Source: Agromyces bauzanensis (lineage in GTDB: Bacteria > Actinomycetota > Actinomycetes > Actinomycetales > Microbacteriaceae). From it: 64,000 bases of DNA. The notes under the pieces were generated by a model. It was given only the letters and a program-made list of their open reading frames with translations. It was not told the DNA's origin and ran no database searches. The stretch lies in NCBI RefSeq assembly GCF_014645655.1, contig NZ_BMMD01000011.1, positions 367 through 64,366 of the forward strand, in the 5' to 3' direction. Below, in pieces: positions 8,539-15,035 of the stretch (position 1 is the first letter of the stretch; every line of letters starts with the position of its first letter). The position numbers and the translations under genes are program-made.

Positions 8539-9831
8539 TCAACGCGTGATGACCACGGGTTCCGCGGTGGCCCACGCCCGCACGAGCTCCCTGCGCACGG
8601 TCACGCCGGTGCCCGGGGCATCCGGAACCCTGAGCTGCCCGCGGTGCTCGCCCTCGCCGAGCACGAACGGCTCGGTGAGGTCGTCGGCGAAGTACCGCGA
8701 CGAGGCCGACGTGTCGCCCGGAAGGGTGAAGCCCGGCAGCGCGGCGAGTGCGACGTTGGCGGCCCGCCCGACGCCCGTCTCGAGCATGCCGCCGCACCAC
8801 ACGGGCACGTCACGCGTGCGGCATGCGTCGTGCACGCGGAGCGCCTCGAGGTAGCCGCCCATGCGGCCGGGCTTGATGTTGACGATGTCGGTGGCACCGC
8901 GCTCGATGGCATCGACGGCCGTCGCGACGTCGAGGATGGACTCGTCGAGGCATACGGGCGTCTCGCAGGCCTCGGCGAGCCGCACGTGCGTGGCCAGGTC
9001 CTCCTCGGCGAACGGCTGCTCGATGAGCAGCAGCCCGAACGCGTCGAGGCTCGCGAGCAGCGGGATGTCGGCGGCGGTGTACGCCGTGTTCGCGTCGACC
9101 TGCAGCATCGCGTCGCGCCCGAGGAGCTCGCGCACGGCGCCTACTGGGATGAGGTCCCAGCCGGGCTTGATCTTCAGCTTGATGCGCCGGTAGCCCTGCT
9201 CGACGTAGCCCGAGACCTCGTCGAGCAGCTCGTCGAGGGTCGGCGCGATGCCCACCGAGACGCCGCAGTCGACCCACTCGCGCACGGCGCCGAAGCACTC
9301 CGCCATCGAGCGCCTCTGCGTGCGCAACTCGGCGTCGAGCACGGCCGCCTCGAGCGCGCCCTTCGCCATGCGGTGCCCGGCCACGAAGGCCAGTGTGCGG
9401 GCGACGGATGCCGCGAGCGGCACGCTCCCGATCGAGCCCGCCGCGCCGCCCGACGCCGGCCCCGAGGCATCCGGAACCTGCTGCTCGCGGTCGTCGACCC
9501 AGATGCCTGCCTCGTGGGACGGGTCGTCGATGAGCACGCCGCTCATGTGCCCGTCGTCCTCGACGCCCTGCACAGGCGACCGCAGCAATGCGGGTGCGAG
9601 GTACTGCTCGATGACGGATGCCGCACCGCCGACGTATTCCGAGGAGTAGAACGGATCGCGGCCCGCGACGCACTCGCCCCAGCCCTCGCCCGCGTCGGTC
9701 ACGGCGTGCACGAGGAGCACCTCGCGCACGGTCTCGCGTCCGAACGAGGTCTCGAAGGGTCGCACGAGCGGCACCTCGAGGCGGTGGAGCTCGATGCGTT
9801 CGAGGGTCGGGGTCGGGGTCGGGGTCATCAT
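8539..9831 (-). CDS. Enolase-superfamily N-succinylamino-acid racemase / o-succinylbenzoate synthase
   Basis: A 430-residue protein of the muconate-lactonizing group. The catalytic lysines fall in KLKIKPGWD (Lys220) and NIKPGRMGG (Lys320); metal ligands are Asp246 (VDANTAY), Glu271 (IEQPF) and Asp297 (LDES). The family does the last-but-one step of menaquinone synthesis or racemises N-succinyl amino acids. It is about 60 residues longer than usual because of a Gly/Asp/Ser-rich insertion at roughly 86-136, before GHRMAKGALE. The nearby COG3375-type GNAT favours the amino-acid racemase role over MenC; this is inference. Confidence 0.82.
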   Translation of the reverse strand: MMTPTPTPTLERIELHRLEVPLVRPFETSFGRETVREVLLVHAVTDAGEGWGECVAGRDPFYSSEYVGGAASVIEQYLAPALLRSPVQGVEDDGHMSGVLIDDPSHEAGIWVDDREQQVPDASGPASGGAAGSIGSVPLAASVARTLAFVAGHRMAKGALEAAVLDAELRTQRRSMAECFGAVREWVDCGVSVGIAPTLDELLDEVSGYVEQGYRRIKLKIKPGWDLIPVGAVRELLGRDAMLQVDANTAYTAADIPLLASLDAFGLLLIEQPFAEEDLATHVRLAEACETPVCLDESILDVATAVDAIERGATDIVNIKPGRMGGYLEALRVHDACRTRDVPVWCGGMLETGVGRAANVALAALPGFTLPGDTSASSRYFADDLTEPFVLGEGEHRGQLRVPDAPGTGVTVRRELVRAWATAEPVVITR

Positions 9832-9897
9832 GGCCTCCCGGTCTGGGTCGTCGACGCCTCCAGTCTGGCGCAGCCCGACCCTCCTCGCCGCCCCGCG

Positions 9898-10322
9898 TCA
9901 GGCGCGCACGAGCTCGTAGAAGCGCCAGAATCCGAAGCCGTCCTCGAGCACGTCGACGCCCGCGAACCCCGCTTCAGCCGCGTAGCGTCGCAGCGTCGAC
10001 GGGCGCATGACCGTGCCGGTGGCGGCGCTCGGCCGGTGGAAGAGCCCATCGGGACGGCAGCTGAACAGGCTGAAGCCGTACATCACGCGGTCCAGGCCCT
10101 CGGTGTCCGGCGTGAACTCGTCGCCGACGGCCTCGTCCATGATGACGACGATCCCGTCGTCGCCGGTCGCCTCGTTCATCGCCGTCAGCACTGCCTGCGG
10201 GTGCGGCAGGTCGTGCAGGCACTCGAAGCCGACCGCGGCGTCGAAGCGTCCGTGGGCTGCGAGGTTCGCGGCATCCTCGACGTGGGCGTGCAGGACGCCG
10301 TCGGGCCGATCACGCAGCAGCG
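9898..10322 (-). pseudogene. 5'-truncated class I methyltransferase remnant
   Basis: The minus-strand frame from about 10322 to 9898 reads through LHAHVEDAANLAAHGRFDAA, FECLHDLPHP, VVIMDEAV, MYGFSLFSC and PSAATGTVMRPSTLRRYAAEAGF. This is the C-terminal half of a SAM-dependent methyltransferase of the kind with an N-terminal winged helix. An in-frame TAG lies just upstream and the GxGxG SAM-binding motif is missing, so the N-terminal ~200 residues are gone. A GTG at 10191 could express 97 residues, but these could not bind SAM. It sits inside an otherwise coherent amino-acid gene set. Confidence 0.7.
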
Positions 10323-10491
10323 CCTACGCGCGTCGCAGCCAGGCCGTGCCAACGGTGACGTCGCCTCCGGTCAGTCGGAGGAGCGAGATGCGGAGCGCGG
10401 TCGCCGCCAGCCGAGCCCGTCGAGCTCCGTAGCCTCAGGCATGCCTGTATGGTAACGCGGTCGCCCCGGCCGGCGCGGGCGAAGGCATGGC

Positions 10492-11313
10492 TCAGGGTTC
10501 CCGGTCGGCGTCGTCGCGTGTGAGGACGTAGTCGCCGTCGGCGTCGAGCTCGACGCGCAGGCCGGGGTCGCGCGAGAGAGCGGCGAAGGCGTCCCGGGAG
10601 GCGTCCCGGAGGCGCGCGGCGACGCGCGGATCCTCCATGCGCACGCGCTCGTAGTCGGCCACGAGCGGCAGTCCGCCCTCGGCGCGCCACGCCGGCACGG
10701 GGCCGCGGGCGAGCGCTCGCGTCGAGCGCGGCGAATCGAGCCGCCACCGCACCTCGAACCGGTCGCTGCGATCGGCGCCCGTGATGGCGTCGCCGAGCTC
10801 GCCGTAGAAGTCGGGCAGGAACGCCGTGACCTCCGCGCCGAGGCGCACGAGGTTCATGCGGGCGTTCCGGCGGATGAGCGGGTCGTAGGTCCAGCGCATC
10901 TCGGTGACCCCATGCGCGAGGCACACGGCCCGCTGCCGCAGCTTCAGGGCGACACCGATGCCCCGGCCGCGCGCGGCGGGGTCGACGGCGTTCATGTGCG
11001 AGTGCAGGTGCAACCCGCCCGCCCAGCCGAGGAAGCCGAGGGTGGCGCCGAGGGGTGTCCCGGTCCCTGAGCCCGTCGAAGGGAGCGGCACCGCCACGAG
11101 CACGGTGTTGCCCGCGTGGTCGAGCGCCTGCACCATCGCCCGGTCCGGGCCGCGGCCCGCACCCCAGGTCGCGCCGAACCGGGCGAGCACGCCGTCGAGC
11201 TCGTCGGGATGCGCCGGGCGCGTGCGGATGCCGGCGCGCTCGTCCGCGGCATCCGCTGATTGCTCCGCGTCGGCGACGACCGACGCCGCCACCTCGCCCG
11301 CCGGCTCCGTCAC
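10492..11313 (-). CDS. GNAT acetyltransferase, COG3375 type
   Basis: A 273-residue protein starting at the GTG that overlaps the stop of the upstream dehydrogenase gene (GTGA). The acetyl-CoA motif is MNAVDPAARGRGIGVALKLRQR, and MRWTYDPLIRRNARMNLVRLGAEV is a recognisable block of this family. COG3375 members occur next to N-succinylamino-acid racemases, where they are proposed to N-succinylate D-amino acids. A dispersed 19-bp repeat (11065-11083) is embedded in frame and encodes LPSTGSGT, a loop just before the core. Substrate assignment is inference from context. Confidence 0.8.
   Translation of the reverse strand: MTEPAGEVAASVVADAEQSADAADERAGIRTRPAHPDELDGVLARFGATWGAGRGPDRAMVQALDHAGNTVLVAVPLPSTGSGTGTPLGATLGFLGWAGGLHLHSHMNAVDPAARGRGIGVALKLRQRAVCLAHGVTEMRWTYDPLIRRNARMNLVRLGAEVTAFLPDFYGELGDAITGADRSDRFEVRWRLDSPRSTRALARGPVPAWRAEGGLPLVADYERVRMEDPRVAARLRDASRDAFAALSRDPGLRVELDADGDYVLTRDDADREP
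11065..11083. repeat. Dispersed 19-bp element embedded in a gene
   Basis: CCCTGAGCCCGTCGAAGGG closely resembles a common bacterial intergenic repeat, CCCTGAGCCTGTCGAAGGG. Here it lies inside the GNAT coding sequence without breaking the frame. Confidence 0.6.
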
Positions 11314-12584
11314 GCCGACCGGTCTTCCACGTGCCAGGGCTGGCCGTATCCGCCGTCGGCGACGGGCCGCGCCATGAGCTCGAGGAACGGCGCCGCGTCG
11401 AACGCCTCGGGGCCGAGCACCCCGCGTCCCTCCCACTCGCCCGTCGCGAGCAACTCCAGCGCGATCACGGGGTTGAGCGCCGTCTGCCACACGACGCACT
11501 GCGACTCGTACTCGGCCATCGTCCACTCGTTGTCGGACACGTGGTAGAGGTACACCTCCCGTGGAATCCCGTCGGTGCCGGTGCCGGTGACCAAGAGGCC
11601 GGCGCACGTCCTGCCCGTCATGCGGGGGCCGATCGTCGCCGGGTCGGGCAGCGCCGCGGCCACGACGTCGCGCGGCGCGACGTGCACGGGCCCGTCCTCG
11701 CTGCGCACGCGGATCGGTGTCGTCGAGTCGAGGCCGAGCAGGTGCAGCGTGCGCAGCACGTTGATGAACTCCTCGCCGAGGCCGTACTTGAAGGTGACGC
11801 GCTTCGCGTCGACCCAGCGCGGCATGAGGAGCACCTCCTCGTGCTCGACGTTCACGCACTCGACCGGCCCGATGCCCTCGGGGAACTCGAAGACCTCGGG
11901 CTCCGAGAAGGGCGGCGTGGTGTACCAGCCGGCGTCCTCCTCCCAGATCACGGGCGGGTTCAGGCACTCCTCGATGGTGGTCCAGATCGAGAACGACGGG
12001 ACGAAGACCTCGTTGCCGGCCTCGTCGCGCACCACGAGGTTCGCGCCGTCGCGCACGCCGAGCTCGTCGATCTCGCTGAACAGGTGGTCGGCGGCATAGC
12101 GGGCGAACACGTCGCTGAGCCCGGGCTCGACCCCCATGCCGACGAGCGCGAGGCGCCCCGCGGCATCCCAGTCGGTGGTCTGCGCGAACTGGTCGTCGCC
12201 GAGCTTCACGCCGGTCTGCGTGTAGGGATCGGTCGGATGCGGCTCCGACAGGCTCATGGCCATGTCGAGGTAGTCGGCCCCGGCGGCGAGCGCACCGGCG
12301 AAGATGGACGGCACGAACTTCGGCTCGACGGCGTTCATCACGTGGGTCGCGGCGTGCTCGCGGGCGACGGATGCCACGACGTCGGGATCCGACGCGTCGA
12401 TCTGCGCCGTGGCGAAGCGGGCGGCAACGTCGTTACCGTGCCGGGCCCGGATCCAGTCGACCGTCCGCTGGGCGCGGGATACGTCGTAGTCGCTCACGAC
12501 GACGAGTTCGAAGAAATCACGACGCGCCGCGATCTTCGCGATGGCGTCTCCGACGCCACCGGCGCCGACGAGGAGGATCCGCAT
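11310..12584 (-). CDS. Saccharopine dehydrogenase-like NAD(P)-dependent enzyme
   Basis: A 424-residue protein with an N-terminal Rossmann motif MRILLVGAGGVGDAIAKIAARRDFF and the family features VMNAVEPKFVPSIFAGALAAGADYLDMAM and GMGVEPGLSDVFARYAAD. The Lys9/LYS1-like superfamily includes saccharopine dehydrogenase and L-lysine 6-dehydrogenase. Length and motifs suit the latter group, which makes a cyclic imine from lysine. It is the first gene of a minus-strand set with the GNAT and, after the methyltransferase remnant, the racemase. This is consistent with amino-acid salvage. Exact substrate unproven. Confidence 0.8.
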   Translation of the reverse strand: MRILLVGAGGVGDAIAKIAARRDFFELVVVSDYDVSRAQRTVDWIRARHGNDVAARFATAQIDASDPDVVASVAREHAATHVMNAVEPKFVPSIFAGALAAGADYLDMAMSLSEPHPTDPYTQTGVKLGDDQFAQTTDWDAAGRLALVGMGVEPGLSDVFARYAADHLFSEIDELGVRDGANLVVRDEAGNEVFVPSFSIWTTIEECLNPPVIWEEDAGWYTTPPFSEPEVFEFPEGIGPVECVNVEHEEVLLMPRWVDAKRVTFKYGLGEEFINVLRTLHLLGLDSTTPIRVRSEDGPVHVAPRDVVAAALPDPATIGPRMTGRTCAGLLVTGTGTDGIPREVYLYHVSDNEWTMAEYESQCVVWQTALNPVIALELLATGEWEGRGVLGPEAFDAAPFLELMARPVADGGYGQPWHVEDRSA

Positions 12585-12708: not shown

Positions 12709-12760
12709 CATCCGCCGAGCGTGCACTCCCTGCCCTCGCATGGGCGACTACTGCACTCTC
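12709..12760 (-). repeat. 52-nt stem-loop repeat, copy U3
   Basis: Read on the minus strand from 12760, this unit aligns without gaps to U1 and U2. It begins GAGAGTGCAG, carries a GCCC/GGGC inner stem, then GGGAGTGCACGCTCGGCG. By my count it matches U2 at 38 of 52 positions. It lies 16 bp beyond the 3' end of the DUF559 gene and points away from it. Confidence 0.7.
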
Positions 12761-12775
12761 GCGAGACTCCGCCGG

Positions 12776-13681
12776 CTACGGGCGCGTCCAGCCACGCAGT
12801 TCGCGCGCATCCGAGAGTTGACGCACGATCACCTCGAAATCCGAATGCCTGTTGACCCGAATGACCAACCAGCCGTTGCCCGCGAGTTCGTTCAACCGGT
12901 CGACGTCCTTCGCCCACTGCCCGTCGTCTTCGCGATGATGGTCGCCGTCATATTCGAGCAGCACCTTCCAGTGCCGGAAGACGAGGTCTCCGCGGGTCGA
13001 GCGTCCCGACCGCAGCGTGATGACGCCGTTCGACTCGGGCTCGGGGAATCCCGCTTCGATCACCCGGAGTCGCAGTTCAGTCTCCTTCGGCGACTCGGAG
13101 CCGACATCGAGATGCTCGCGTGCGGCTCGCAGCCCGCGGCATCCGCGGCGCTTCCCGTACCGCTCGATCGCCTCGTCGATCTCGTCGACGGCGGCGAGGG
13201 GTGCTGGACGGCCGAGCAGCCGATCACCCGCTTGGATCAGTTCGAGCTCGCTCAGGACCGTCGACAGCTGGCACCAGGCGTCGCTCGCCGCGACGAGCGG
13301 GAGCGCGCGGGGTTGCCGCGTCGGCGGCGCCTCGACAGTCCGGTGCCCGACGACGTTCCACACGCGTGGCGGATACTTCCCACCCCAGACCGTGAGGTGG
13401 AGCGTCTTGGACGACTCCAGACGCCGTGGAAGCGGGAGACCCCAGAGTGCGGCCGCCGTGACGTGGCTGAATGCCCACTCCCCATGGGTCATGTGCAGCT
13501 GGAGGGCATGGCAGCGCGCCATGAGCGACGTCTCCTCCGCGCGCGGGAGCCGCACGCCGCGCACTGGGATCACGAGATCCGACCCGCGAAGGCGCTTGAC
13601 GGTGAGGCCCCGGGCGCGGGCGTCGTGCGTGGTGAACGGGGCGAGTGAGAAGTCGAGCGGGAGCGGGCGGCGCGGACTCAT
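12776..13681 (-). CDS. DUF559 / AbiEi-like protein with restriction-endonuclease-type fold
   Basis: A 301-residue protein. The N-terminal part (FTTHDARARGLTVKRLRGSDLVIPVRGV) resembles the winged-helix region of AbiEi-type antitoxins. The C-terminal part (TRGDLVFRHWKVLLEYDGDHHR, DVDRLNELAGNGWLVIRVNR) is the DUF559 domain, related to Vsr-like nucleases, with Asp/Glu/His residues in the expected EYDGDHHR core. Such genes are common in Microbacteriaceae and have no assigned function. It is flanked on both sides by 52-nt stem-loop units facing away from it, which makes a mobile or maintenance role worth considering. Confidence 0.72.
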   Translation of the reverse strand: MSPRRPLPLDFSLAPFTTHDARARGLTVKRLRGSDLVIPVRGVRLPRAEETSLMARCHALQLHMTHGEWAFSHVTAAALWGLPLPRRLESSKTLHLTVWGGKYPPRVWNVVGHRTVEAPPTRQPRALPLVAASDAWCQLSTVLSELELIQAGDRLLGRPAPLAAVDEIDEAIERYGKRRGCRGLRAAREHLDVGSESPKETELRLRVIEAGFPEPESNGVITLRSGRSTRGDLVFRHWKVLLEYDGDHHREDDGQWAKDVDRLNELAGNGWLVIRVNRHSDFEVIVRQLSDARELRGWTRP

Positions 13682-13886
13682 GTCCAGAGTCTCCCGTCCG
13701 CGAGATTCGGTGCGTCCTTCCCCGCGGAACCTGTCAAGGCTCCTCGTGGATCCCGGATGTTGAGGACGGGTGCGCGCTTGGGCCCGGGCGGCGGGCGCCG
13801 GGCTGCAAACAGTCGATCACACACAGGCGGGGCGGCGGGCGACGGGCTGCGGGCGCCGGGCGCCGGGCGGCGGCGCCCTCCGAGGT
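13682..13886. other. Low-complexity GC-rich intergenic region
   Basis: Between the DUF559 start and the repeat cluster. It contains short degenerate GGGCGCCGGGC and GGGCGGCGGGC tracts (13787-13875) but no plausible gene. It presumably includes the promoter of the DUF559 gene. Confidence 0.4.
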
Positions 13887-14057
13887 GGAGTGCACTCTCA
13901 GCGAGAGTGCACTCGGCGTCCGAAGAGGGGCGCGAAGTGCACACTCGGCGAAGGTGGGGTGGCGTTCGCGGGACGGGCGCGCGAGCGCCGGGCAGCGAAA
14001 TCGAGAGTGCACTCGCCGCCCGAAAGAGGGCGCGGAGTGCACTCTCGGCGAGGATGG
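13887..14057 (+). repeat. Cluster of 52-nt stem-loop units (half unit, U1, U2)
   Basis: U1 is 13903-13954 and U2 is 14003-14054, exactly 100 bp apart. They align ungapped with 43 of 52 identities by eye. Each begins GAGAGTGCAC and has the pairing GTGCACWCTC near position 36-45, giving a 9-10 bp outer stem, plus an inner CGYCC/GGGCG stem. A half unit (GGAGTGCACTCTCAGC) precedes U1 at 13887. The third full copy is at 12709-12760 on the other side of the DUF559 gene. Confidence 0.75.
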
Positions 14058-14086
14058 ACGGCGAGGATGGACGGCGAGGATGGACG
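14048..14086. repeat. 13-bp tandem repeat, three copies
   Basis: GCGAGGATGGACG is repeated three times without change, overlapping the end of U2 and running towards the urate oxidase stop. Confidence 0.85.
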
Positions 14087-14135: not shown

Positions 14136-15035
14136 TCAGCAGAACCCGGCGATGCCCTCCCACGCGGCCCCCGGGCTCGCGACCCCCTCGCGCCCCACGG
14201 CCGCCTCGATGAGCCCGTACGGGCGGTCGGCCGCGAAGAACACCTCGTTCGGATTCTCGAGCCCGAACGGCGCGAGGTCGACGACGAAGTGGTGCTTGTT
14301 CGGCATCGAGAAGCGGATCTCGGCGATCTCGGGGTGCGCCTCGAGCACCGCGCGGCCCATGTCGAACAGGGTCGCCTGCAGCGCGGCCGAGTACCTCGCC
14401 GCGAACGCCTCGAGGAGCAGCGACCGCACGTTCGCGTACACCGCGTCGTAGTCGACGTCGCCCCGACCGTACCGCCACCTGGCGGCGACATCGGTGGCGA
14501 GGATGCGGTCGGATGTCTCGGCGAGCGTCGTGTACCGATCCTTCGGGTAGCCCTCGAAGCCCGACTGCGTGGTCTTCAGCACGGTGAGCTCCCGGAGCCC
14601 GGCGATGACATGCCGGTCGTCGCCGTCGGCGACGACGACCGCGGTGCGCACCTCCTTCCCGCTGCGCACGAACGCGTGGTCGTGCTCGGCGCCGTCCACC
14701 GGGATGCGCTGCCACGCGAACTGCTCGGCCTCCCAGCGGCCGCCGGTCACCCAGTCGAACGAGCCGGTGAAGTGCTCGGCGAGCCGCAGCAGGAACGCCT
14801 CGGGCGAGCCCACCCCGTCGCGCGCGAAGGCGAAGATCGTGTTCTTCTGCGTGTCGGTCGGCACGACGTGCGAGTTGTCGCCCGCGAGATGGGCCGCCGC
14901 GAAGTCGCCGCGAAGCTGCGACGTGACGTTGAGGTCCTCGATCTCGTGGCGGGCGGTGTCGCGCGTGACCTTCACGACGCGCACCTCGGCCTTGCCGTAC
15001 TGGTTGGCTCCGAGGACGATGGCGGGCTCGGTCAT
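14136..15035 (-). CDS. pucL: Urate oxidase (uricase)
   Basis: A 299-residue cofactor-independent uricase, of normal length. Recognisable blocks are LGANQYGKAEVRVVKV at the N-terminus, the catalytic-threonine region NSHVVPTDTQKNTIFAFA (Thr in VVPTDTQKN), LKTTQSGFEGYPKDRYTTL with the signature Arg and Gln neighbours, and the urate-binding MPNKHHFVVDLAPFGL. It oxidises urate to 5-hydroxyisourate with release of H2O2. The start ATG is preceded by AAGGAG, which lies just past the uraH stop, so the pair is tightly coupled. It is the last gene of a five-gene minus-strand purine operon. Confidence 0.93.
   Translation of the reverse strand: MTEPAIVLGANQYGKAEVRVVKVTRDTARHEIEDLNVTSQLRGDFAAAHLAGDNSHVVPTDTQKNTIFAFARDGVGSPEAFLLRLAEHFTGSFDWVTGGRWEAEQFAWQRIPVDGAEHDHAFVRSGKEVRTAVVVADGDDRHVIAGLRELTVLKTTQSGFEGYPKDRYTTLAETSDRILATDVAARWRYGRGDVDYDAVYANVRSLLLEAFAARYSAALQATLFDMGRAVLEAHPEIAEIRFSMPNKHHFVVDLAPFGLENPNEVFFAADRPYGLIEAAVGREGVASPGAAWEGIAGFC

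Follow-up and report, generated by a model that had tools for sequence, protein, structure and literature searches.

The window analyzed here, a stretch of 64,000 nucleotides from Agromyces bauzanensis, carries a nuclease gene of the DUF559/REase_MTES_1575 type (12776..13681, minus strand, 301 aa) with short palindromes on both sides, which raises the question as to whether the gene and the palindromes belong together in the way that REP elements belong to RAYT genes. An earlier note on this DNA had proposed a REP-like system of this kind around the DUF559 gene.

Three units, which are palindromes 46–49 nt in length, flank the gene. Unit A (12716..12761, minus strand) lies 15 nt beyond the 3' end of the gene, reads away from it and has a short 3' tail. 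Units B (13902..13950, plus strand; palindrome core 13902–13947 plus the tail GCG) and C (14002..14050, plus strand; core 14002–14047 plus GCG) are located upstream, 221 and 321 nt from the gene, respectively, and a half unit consisting of the 3' arm only (13887..13899, plus strand) stands head to head with unit B. The arrangement of one unit past the 3' end and two upstream is that described in the earlier note, as is the folding of all three units into stem-loops: the folding z-scores on the two strands were -5.1/-6.1 for unit C, -4.3/-2.9 for the region of unit B, and -1.9/-2.3 for unit A. The ungapped identity over 52 nt amounts to 44 positions between C and B, 39 between C and A, and 36 between B and A, the counts of 43 and 38 made previously by hand being right to within one; elsewhere in the window, the best 52-nt match to unit C on either strand is 31. 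The core of the unit is a 46-nt palindrome with the ends CGAG.GTGCA and TGCAC.CTCG, an interior CGCCC/GGGCG stem and a variable six-base loop, followed by a tail which is mostly GCG (in the aligned units, the tails mostly read CTCGGCG). No GTAG or CGTC tag was found at either end of the aligned units. The pair GTGCA..TGCAC with a spacing of 24–36 nt occurs seven times in the window vs. 0.83 times expected, and this number was attained in none of 100 shuffles; units A, B, and C account for three of the seven occurrences. A 13-nt tandem repeat (CGGCGAGGATGGA) in about three copies begins at the tail of unit C (14046–14083).

Among named organisms, the nearest relatives of the gene are those in Agromyces sp. 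H66 (90%) and A. cavernae (72%). The window protein gave hits to only two Pfam families, both below the cut-off, DUF559 (18.7 bits vs. a cut-off of 20.6) and MTES_1575 (18.4 vs. 38.2), and showed no match to the RAYT families (HUH, Y1). At E <= 0.01, MTES_1575 matched 33 of its 52 homologues and DUF559 matched 25. The residues E200, R204, D232, L242, E243, Y244, D245, G246, H248, H249, and R250 are invariant in the alignment of the 52 sequences, and E200, D232, E243, D245, H248, and H249 among them probably have a catalytic role. The AlphaFold2 model built from this alignment has a pLDDT of 93.8 and a pTM of 0.89. All Foldseek matches have E values above 0.001: a mitoribosomal chain ranks first (E 0.0023, TM 0.26), followed by weak matches to AbaSI (E 0.005) and PvuRTs1I (E 0.007) and, lower down, by the catalytic domain of I-Bth0305I (E 0.10, TM 0.72 when normalized to the target) and Vsr (E 0.15). 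Sequence matches to the C-terminal part were 3hrl (0.06) and 3r3p (1.7). The restriction-endonuclease-like fold suggested in the earlier note agrees with the weak fold matches and the invariant acidic and histidine residues, and the C-terminal domain is, going by the model, a Vsr-like PD-(D/E)XK nuclease domain. One PADLOC AbiEi model matched 32 of the 52 homologues, the matched part not being displayed, while the window protein gave no PADLOC match; judging from these homologues, the N-terminal half is probably AbiEi-like.

In the genome of A. bauzanensis, the covariance-model search that the earlier note had suggested gave 22 rows, i.e., 11 palindromes each read on both strands; the scores fall off cleanly after the 11th unit (E 8e-4, then 0.65). 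Three of these 11 units are no more than 400 nt away from the gene (0.005 expected, P about 2e-8). At six of the seven other loci in this genome, the units overlap no ORF retained by the filter; at L092, the longest ORF reading overlaps the unit by 41 nt. The dispersed units are single palindromes or, in one case, a tandem pair. We searched 60 genomes of the genus: a relative of the protein was found at 1e-6 in 52, and the corrected model R3 matched in 14 (with 100 candidates per genome scored and rows counting both strands). The base pairs of the previous model, R1, were two columns out of register; since R3, with the register corrected, gives similar counts (14 vs. 10 of 60 genomes), R1 worked mainly on sequence. 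The five genomes with an orthologue of at least 66% all carry dispersed units as well as units at the gene, and the outcome that would have spoken against the earlier note, units with no association to DUF559 genes, was not found. The numbers of R3 rows were 22 (G000), 95 (G012), 44 (G047), 36 (G049), and 20 (G055) vs. 1–18 in the other nine genomes; the well-known REPs have higher copy numbers than these Agromyces palindromes. The gene has units on either side in G047, G012, and G049, and G055 has five tandem units upstream only, adjoining the end of the contig. Two genomes without a close orthologue, G015 and G019, gave 18 and 11 rows (about nine and six palindromes), and G019 has no match to the window protein at 1e-6; the palindromes in these genomes could be relics or could belong to another gene.

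The direct neighbors of the DUF559 gene look metabolic, as far as we can name them: the one on the left (11310..12584, minus strand) is presumably a dehydrogenase-like gene ("sdh") and the one on the right (14136..15035, minus strand) is what we take to be a uricase-like gene. They bound a site which is empty in relatives. In 26 stretches taken from other genomes upstream of their dehydrogenase-like gene, the two genes are adjacent in six (48–83 nt apart) and separated by 162 and 276 nt in two and by 1.4–2.0 kb of other sequence in six, and no uricase gene is seen there in the remaining 12. Five genomes carry the block containing the DUF559 gene, and others lack it at that gap; in G049, another gene takes the place of the dehydrogenase-like gene at the block. 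A 55% relative, L149, is located elsewhere in a similar neighborhood. The placement is not that of a homing endonuclease, as the gene sits between two ORFs which are adjacent in 6 of the 26 relatives. No target-site duplication was readable by eye at the uricase gap, and no cut site was found. In G019, a different nuclease-like gene (L165:343-1305, minus strand), MTES_1575-like by eye, occupies the gap between the uricase and dehydrogenase genes, with a flank score of only 35; this gap may be a hot spot. In G031, the 276-nt gap (L177) contains a different palindrome-like pair, recognized by eye (GTTCAGGACGA...TCGTCCTGAAC).

Solo palindromes were observed in a second gap, preceded by a conserved gene which is presumably part of a hut operon. 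Of the 30 loci returned by the search, 24 have a gap of 23–81 nt (the length is mostly 23–37 nt) and no unit, whereas one unit of the window's family is present in G000 and G009 and two in G047, two copies of an unrelated palindrome are present in G038 and G014, and, in G004 (L212), a different insert that is palindromic and includes a long run of G/C (CCGAGACGTGGGG...CCCCACGTCTCG). Empty sites, another point on which the earlier note had proposed a check, exist both for the gene block and for the unit. If dispersed palindromes belong to a DUF559 gene of the same genome, the unrelated ones in the hut-like gap should match the flanks of such a gene, and this was found to be the case: the palindromes in G038 and G014, which share one family that was thus seen twice, score 52–60 against the flanks of the DUF559 genes L265 (G038) and L267 (G014), the next best scores among 40 loci being 25 and 31. 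A solo palindrome beside the sdh gene in G037 also had its best match at a DUF559 locus of G037, if weakly (38 vs. 37 for a foreign one). No target-site duplication was seen by eye at the hut-like gap. At a further site, no clean empty allele was obtained, and the corresponding place in G047 is occupied by a unit.

The association between gene and palindromes extends beyond the window's family. To include DUF559 relatives whose distance from the window's gene is too great for a common palindrome sequence, we compared the 400 nt before with the 400 nt after each gene, using a threshold score of at least 40, at 112 distinct loci with sufficiently long flanks (L068 and L151 were dropped as too short). 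An inverted flank match reached the threshold at 59 of the 112 loci (36/57 in Agromyces and 23/55 elsewhere), and a match in either orientation at 67. The remaining 45 loci show no flank match at 40 in either orientation (18/57 in Agromyces, 9/27 in Curtobacterium, and 18/28 in the others); the G055 orthologue, with its units upstream only, is one of these. Three more distant DUF559 genes of the window's own genome, which do not belong to the set of 112, have flank scores of 35, 25, and 26. Among control ORFs of 200–500 aa from the surveyed loci, none of 310 reached 40 and five reached 36; none of 29 DUF222/HNH nuclease genes from the same genus reached 40 (one of the 30 was too short), and random placements reached it in 2 of 2280 cases. 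A homologue could be placed in 37 of 40 fetched stretches, and 29 of these 37 exceeded all 60 local controls. Clustering of copies at DUF559 loci was a check put forward in the earlier note, and its second adverse outcome, orthologues consistently lacking units, failed to appear. At one locus in Bifidobacterium moukalabense (L082, about 9728–10690), the DUF559 gene is flanked by very long, near-identical inverted repeats (score 248), which resemble transposon ends more than short palindromes.

Many of the matched flanks are long palindromes which have a common plan and differ in their letters. At 22 chosen loci, they mostly begin between 30 nt before and 60 nt after the stop codon, and some are located 60–150 nt before the start. 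Palindromes of the GAGATCGCACTTCGTGTCGG type occur at Curtobacterium loci and those of the GGTCACGA type at others; a Mycobacterium MAG has a GAGTTTGCGCCCAGATCGCG-type palindrome, and two genes of a single Agromyces strain have GTCTCGGCGTCACGTTTGTGCTG-type and CGAGTTGCCACGATTGCCCC-type palindromes. Dispersal was analyzed in a handful of families, twice in samples of 400 kb. The Curtobacterium model R2 (150 candidates scored per genome, rows counting both strands) gave 57, 42, 102, 128, and 75 rows in the five genomes in which this palindrome stands at the gene vs. 0–10 rows in 11 of the 13 other Curtobacterium genomes, the exceptions being G073 (69) and G074 (39). Within 400 kb sampled from G006, palindromes of its own two genes were found at five and four places away from the genes, and none of those of G038; a 400-kb sample of G038 contains one of its own two families once and the other nowhere, and lacks the G006 families. 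Reversed queries gave no match. The families are private, though not absolutely so, since a score of 40 is reached by 171 of the 3306 flank pairs crossed between loci. The correlation between protein identity and flank similarity (Spearman 0.35) was not used as evidence of co-evolution, as the Curtobacterium loci probably share neighbors.

The reading we favor, at about two chances in three, is that the gene and the palindromes form one selfish or domesticated unit, consisting of a DUF559 nuclease and its private palindrome family. This is in line with the system proposed in the earlier note, neither of the two adverse outcomes having occurred. A cognate pairing between nuclease and palindrome is quite probable, while it is a tentative proposal, at slightly less than even odds in our view, that the nuclease itself spreads the copies. 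Mechanistically, the AbiEi-like N-terminal part would recognize the palindrome, either as a duplex dyad or as an extruded hairpin; the Vsr-like active site would nick or cut at the palindrome or at a target; and repair or strand transfer would then copy the palindrome into new intergenic places. By analogy, the nuclease might play the role that RAYTs play for REPs, although the enzyme is unrelated. Several findings argue against a private unit: the loci without any flank match (45/112) and the low scores at the distant genes of the window's own genome, the breaks in the pairing of gene and palindrome in G015 and G019 (window's family) and in G073 and G074 (R2), the G038 family with no dispersed copy in 400 kb, the lack of covariation beyond shuffles within the window's family, and the failure to find a target-site duplication or a cut site.

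The same data can be read in other ways. Binding to inverted repeats at the promoter of their own gene is known from AbiEi-type antitoxins, and the palindromes might be operators through which the gene is repressed by the AbiEi-like part of its product, the dispersed copies being a regulon or decoys which do not move. The PADLOC match in the 32 homologues (not in the window protein) and the upstream copies, mostly some 60–150 nt before the start, are consistent with this, but copies are also located at the stop codon, and tandem arrays of up to five units (G055), dozens of copies per genome and presence or absence in a gap mostly 23–37 nt long would not be expected of operators. Moreover, a change of palindrome from one gene to the next would require the whole regulon to be rewired, and we regard this explanation as unlikely. 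It is about equally doubtful that the gene and palindromes move as a whole, like a transposon, with the palindromes as its ends and the solo copies as MITE-like remnants. Such movement would account for a block found in five genomes where others have the gap without it, for the 55% relative in a similar neighborhood elsewhere and for the very long inverted repeats in Bifidobacterium; yet the palindromes at the gene often form tandem arrays instead of single ends, the units dispersed in the window's own genome stand singly or as a tandem pair, no junction duplication was seen, and 14 of the 15 matched Curtobacterium genomes have a single match (with a query of 60 residues only). Lastly, hairpins downstream of genes are common in high-GC genomes, and the best 70-nt folding energies at the DUF559 genes differ only modestly from those at the DUF222 genes (-40.5/-39.7 vs. 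-37.6/-36.9 kcal/mol, P 0.003), as would be the case if the palindromes were ordinary terminators or genome-wide structural repeats lying near genes by chance. The likeness of the flanks, however, separates the genes far better (36/57 vs. 0/29 and 0/310), and the palindrome families track the gene lineage; in view of the two control sets, this explanation is already disfavored and is highly improbable.

For the private unit of nuclease and palindromes, the nearest analogue is the RAYT/REP system (PMC3733652, PMC3116915, PMC8266576, PMC6006769). As in the REP/REPIN-RAYT systems (REPtrons), a single gene is bracketed by short palindromes (59 of the 112 loci) which are likewise scattered elsewhere in that genome, the palindromes change from one gene lineage to the next, repeats also occur in genomes without a close gene, and there is a short tail at one end (GCG in the window's family vs. 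GTAG in REPs). The enzyme here, in contrast, would be a Vsr-like PD-(D/E)XK nuclease and not an HUH Y1 transposase, and the GTAG tag is lacking. Since both the enzyme and the tag differ, this is not a member of the REP/RAYT family; our conclusion is that it resembles REP/RAYT as a system but is based on a nuclease unrelated to RAYTs. TIRtrons, in which RAYT-like genes are flanked by TIRs, resemble it in having a gene bracketed by inverted repeats, with some repeated families, and still encode tyrosine transposases; CGTC REPs, which have no dedicated transposase and are described as flanking no RAYT-type gene, are likewise palindromes with no known mobilizing enzyme (PMC3733652). The Caulobacter protein VsrA also has a Vsr-like DUF559 domain, and a role in mismatch repair tied to a cytosine methyltransferase has been proposed for it (PMC12907096); the terms "hairpin" and "palindrom" do not appear in the main text of that article. 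Among the matches listed by a search in open-access PMC, which does not include bioRxiv, no title or beginning of an abstract linked DUF559 with palindromic repeats. In terms of fold, the weak matches place the nuclease near Vsr, the EDxHD homing endonuclease I-Bth0305I and the 5hmC enzymes AbaSI and PvuRTs1I. To our knowledge, none of these four is linked to a private family of dispersed palindromes. In the comparison with AbiE, the AbiEi models match homologues and not the window protein itself.

REP-like palindromes have so far been tied to one class of enzymes, the RAYTs, with the CGTC REPs lacking a known enzyme. What we describe has the appearance of a novel type of selfish repeat system, present in some actinobacteria of soil and plants, and whether Vsr-like DUF559 nucleases that copy their own fast-changing families constitute a second, independently evolved enzymatic basis of REP-like palindromes is, in our estimation, evenly balanced. 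If they do, a nuclease of unrelated fold would have its private palindromes and the layout would have evolved twice, a function would be assigned to part of a large family for which none is known, and dozens of natural pairs of protein and DNA specificities would be available. Cognate and non-cognate pairs from one genus lend themselves to a direct in vitro test of whether nuclease and palindrome match.

As regards the form in which the palindrome would be recognized, 83.5% of the alignment cells pair in the correct register vs. 34–54% when the register is slid, and in the correct register no measure of covariation within the window's family exceeded that of shuffles. Covariation was therefore dropped as proof of a hairpin, and recognition of the duplex is as likely as that of a hairpin. 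The orientation of a unit is a weak feature, since the unit is a nearly perfect palindrome. Going by the model score, units A, B, and C all read outward, and the outward layout claimed in the earlier note held for all seven units in the window and its closest relative; it did not hold as a universal rule, since among 21 units at five loci (two weaker units in G012 being left out), 12 were outward, six inward and three tied in R1 bits. At the 67 loci with a flank match, the inverted match was better in 37 cases, the direct one in 19 and the two were about equal in 11, although the flank score barely distinguishes inverted from direct copies of palindromic units. Outward orientation is a minor and variable feature of these loci.
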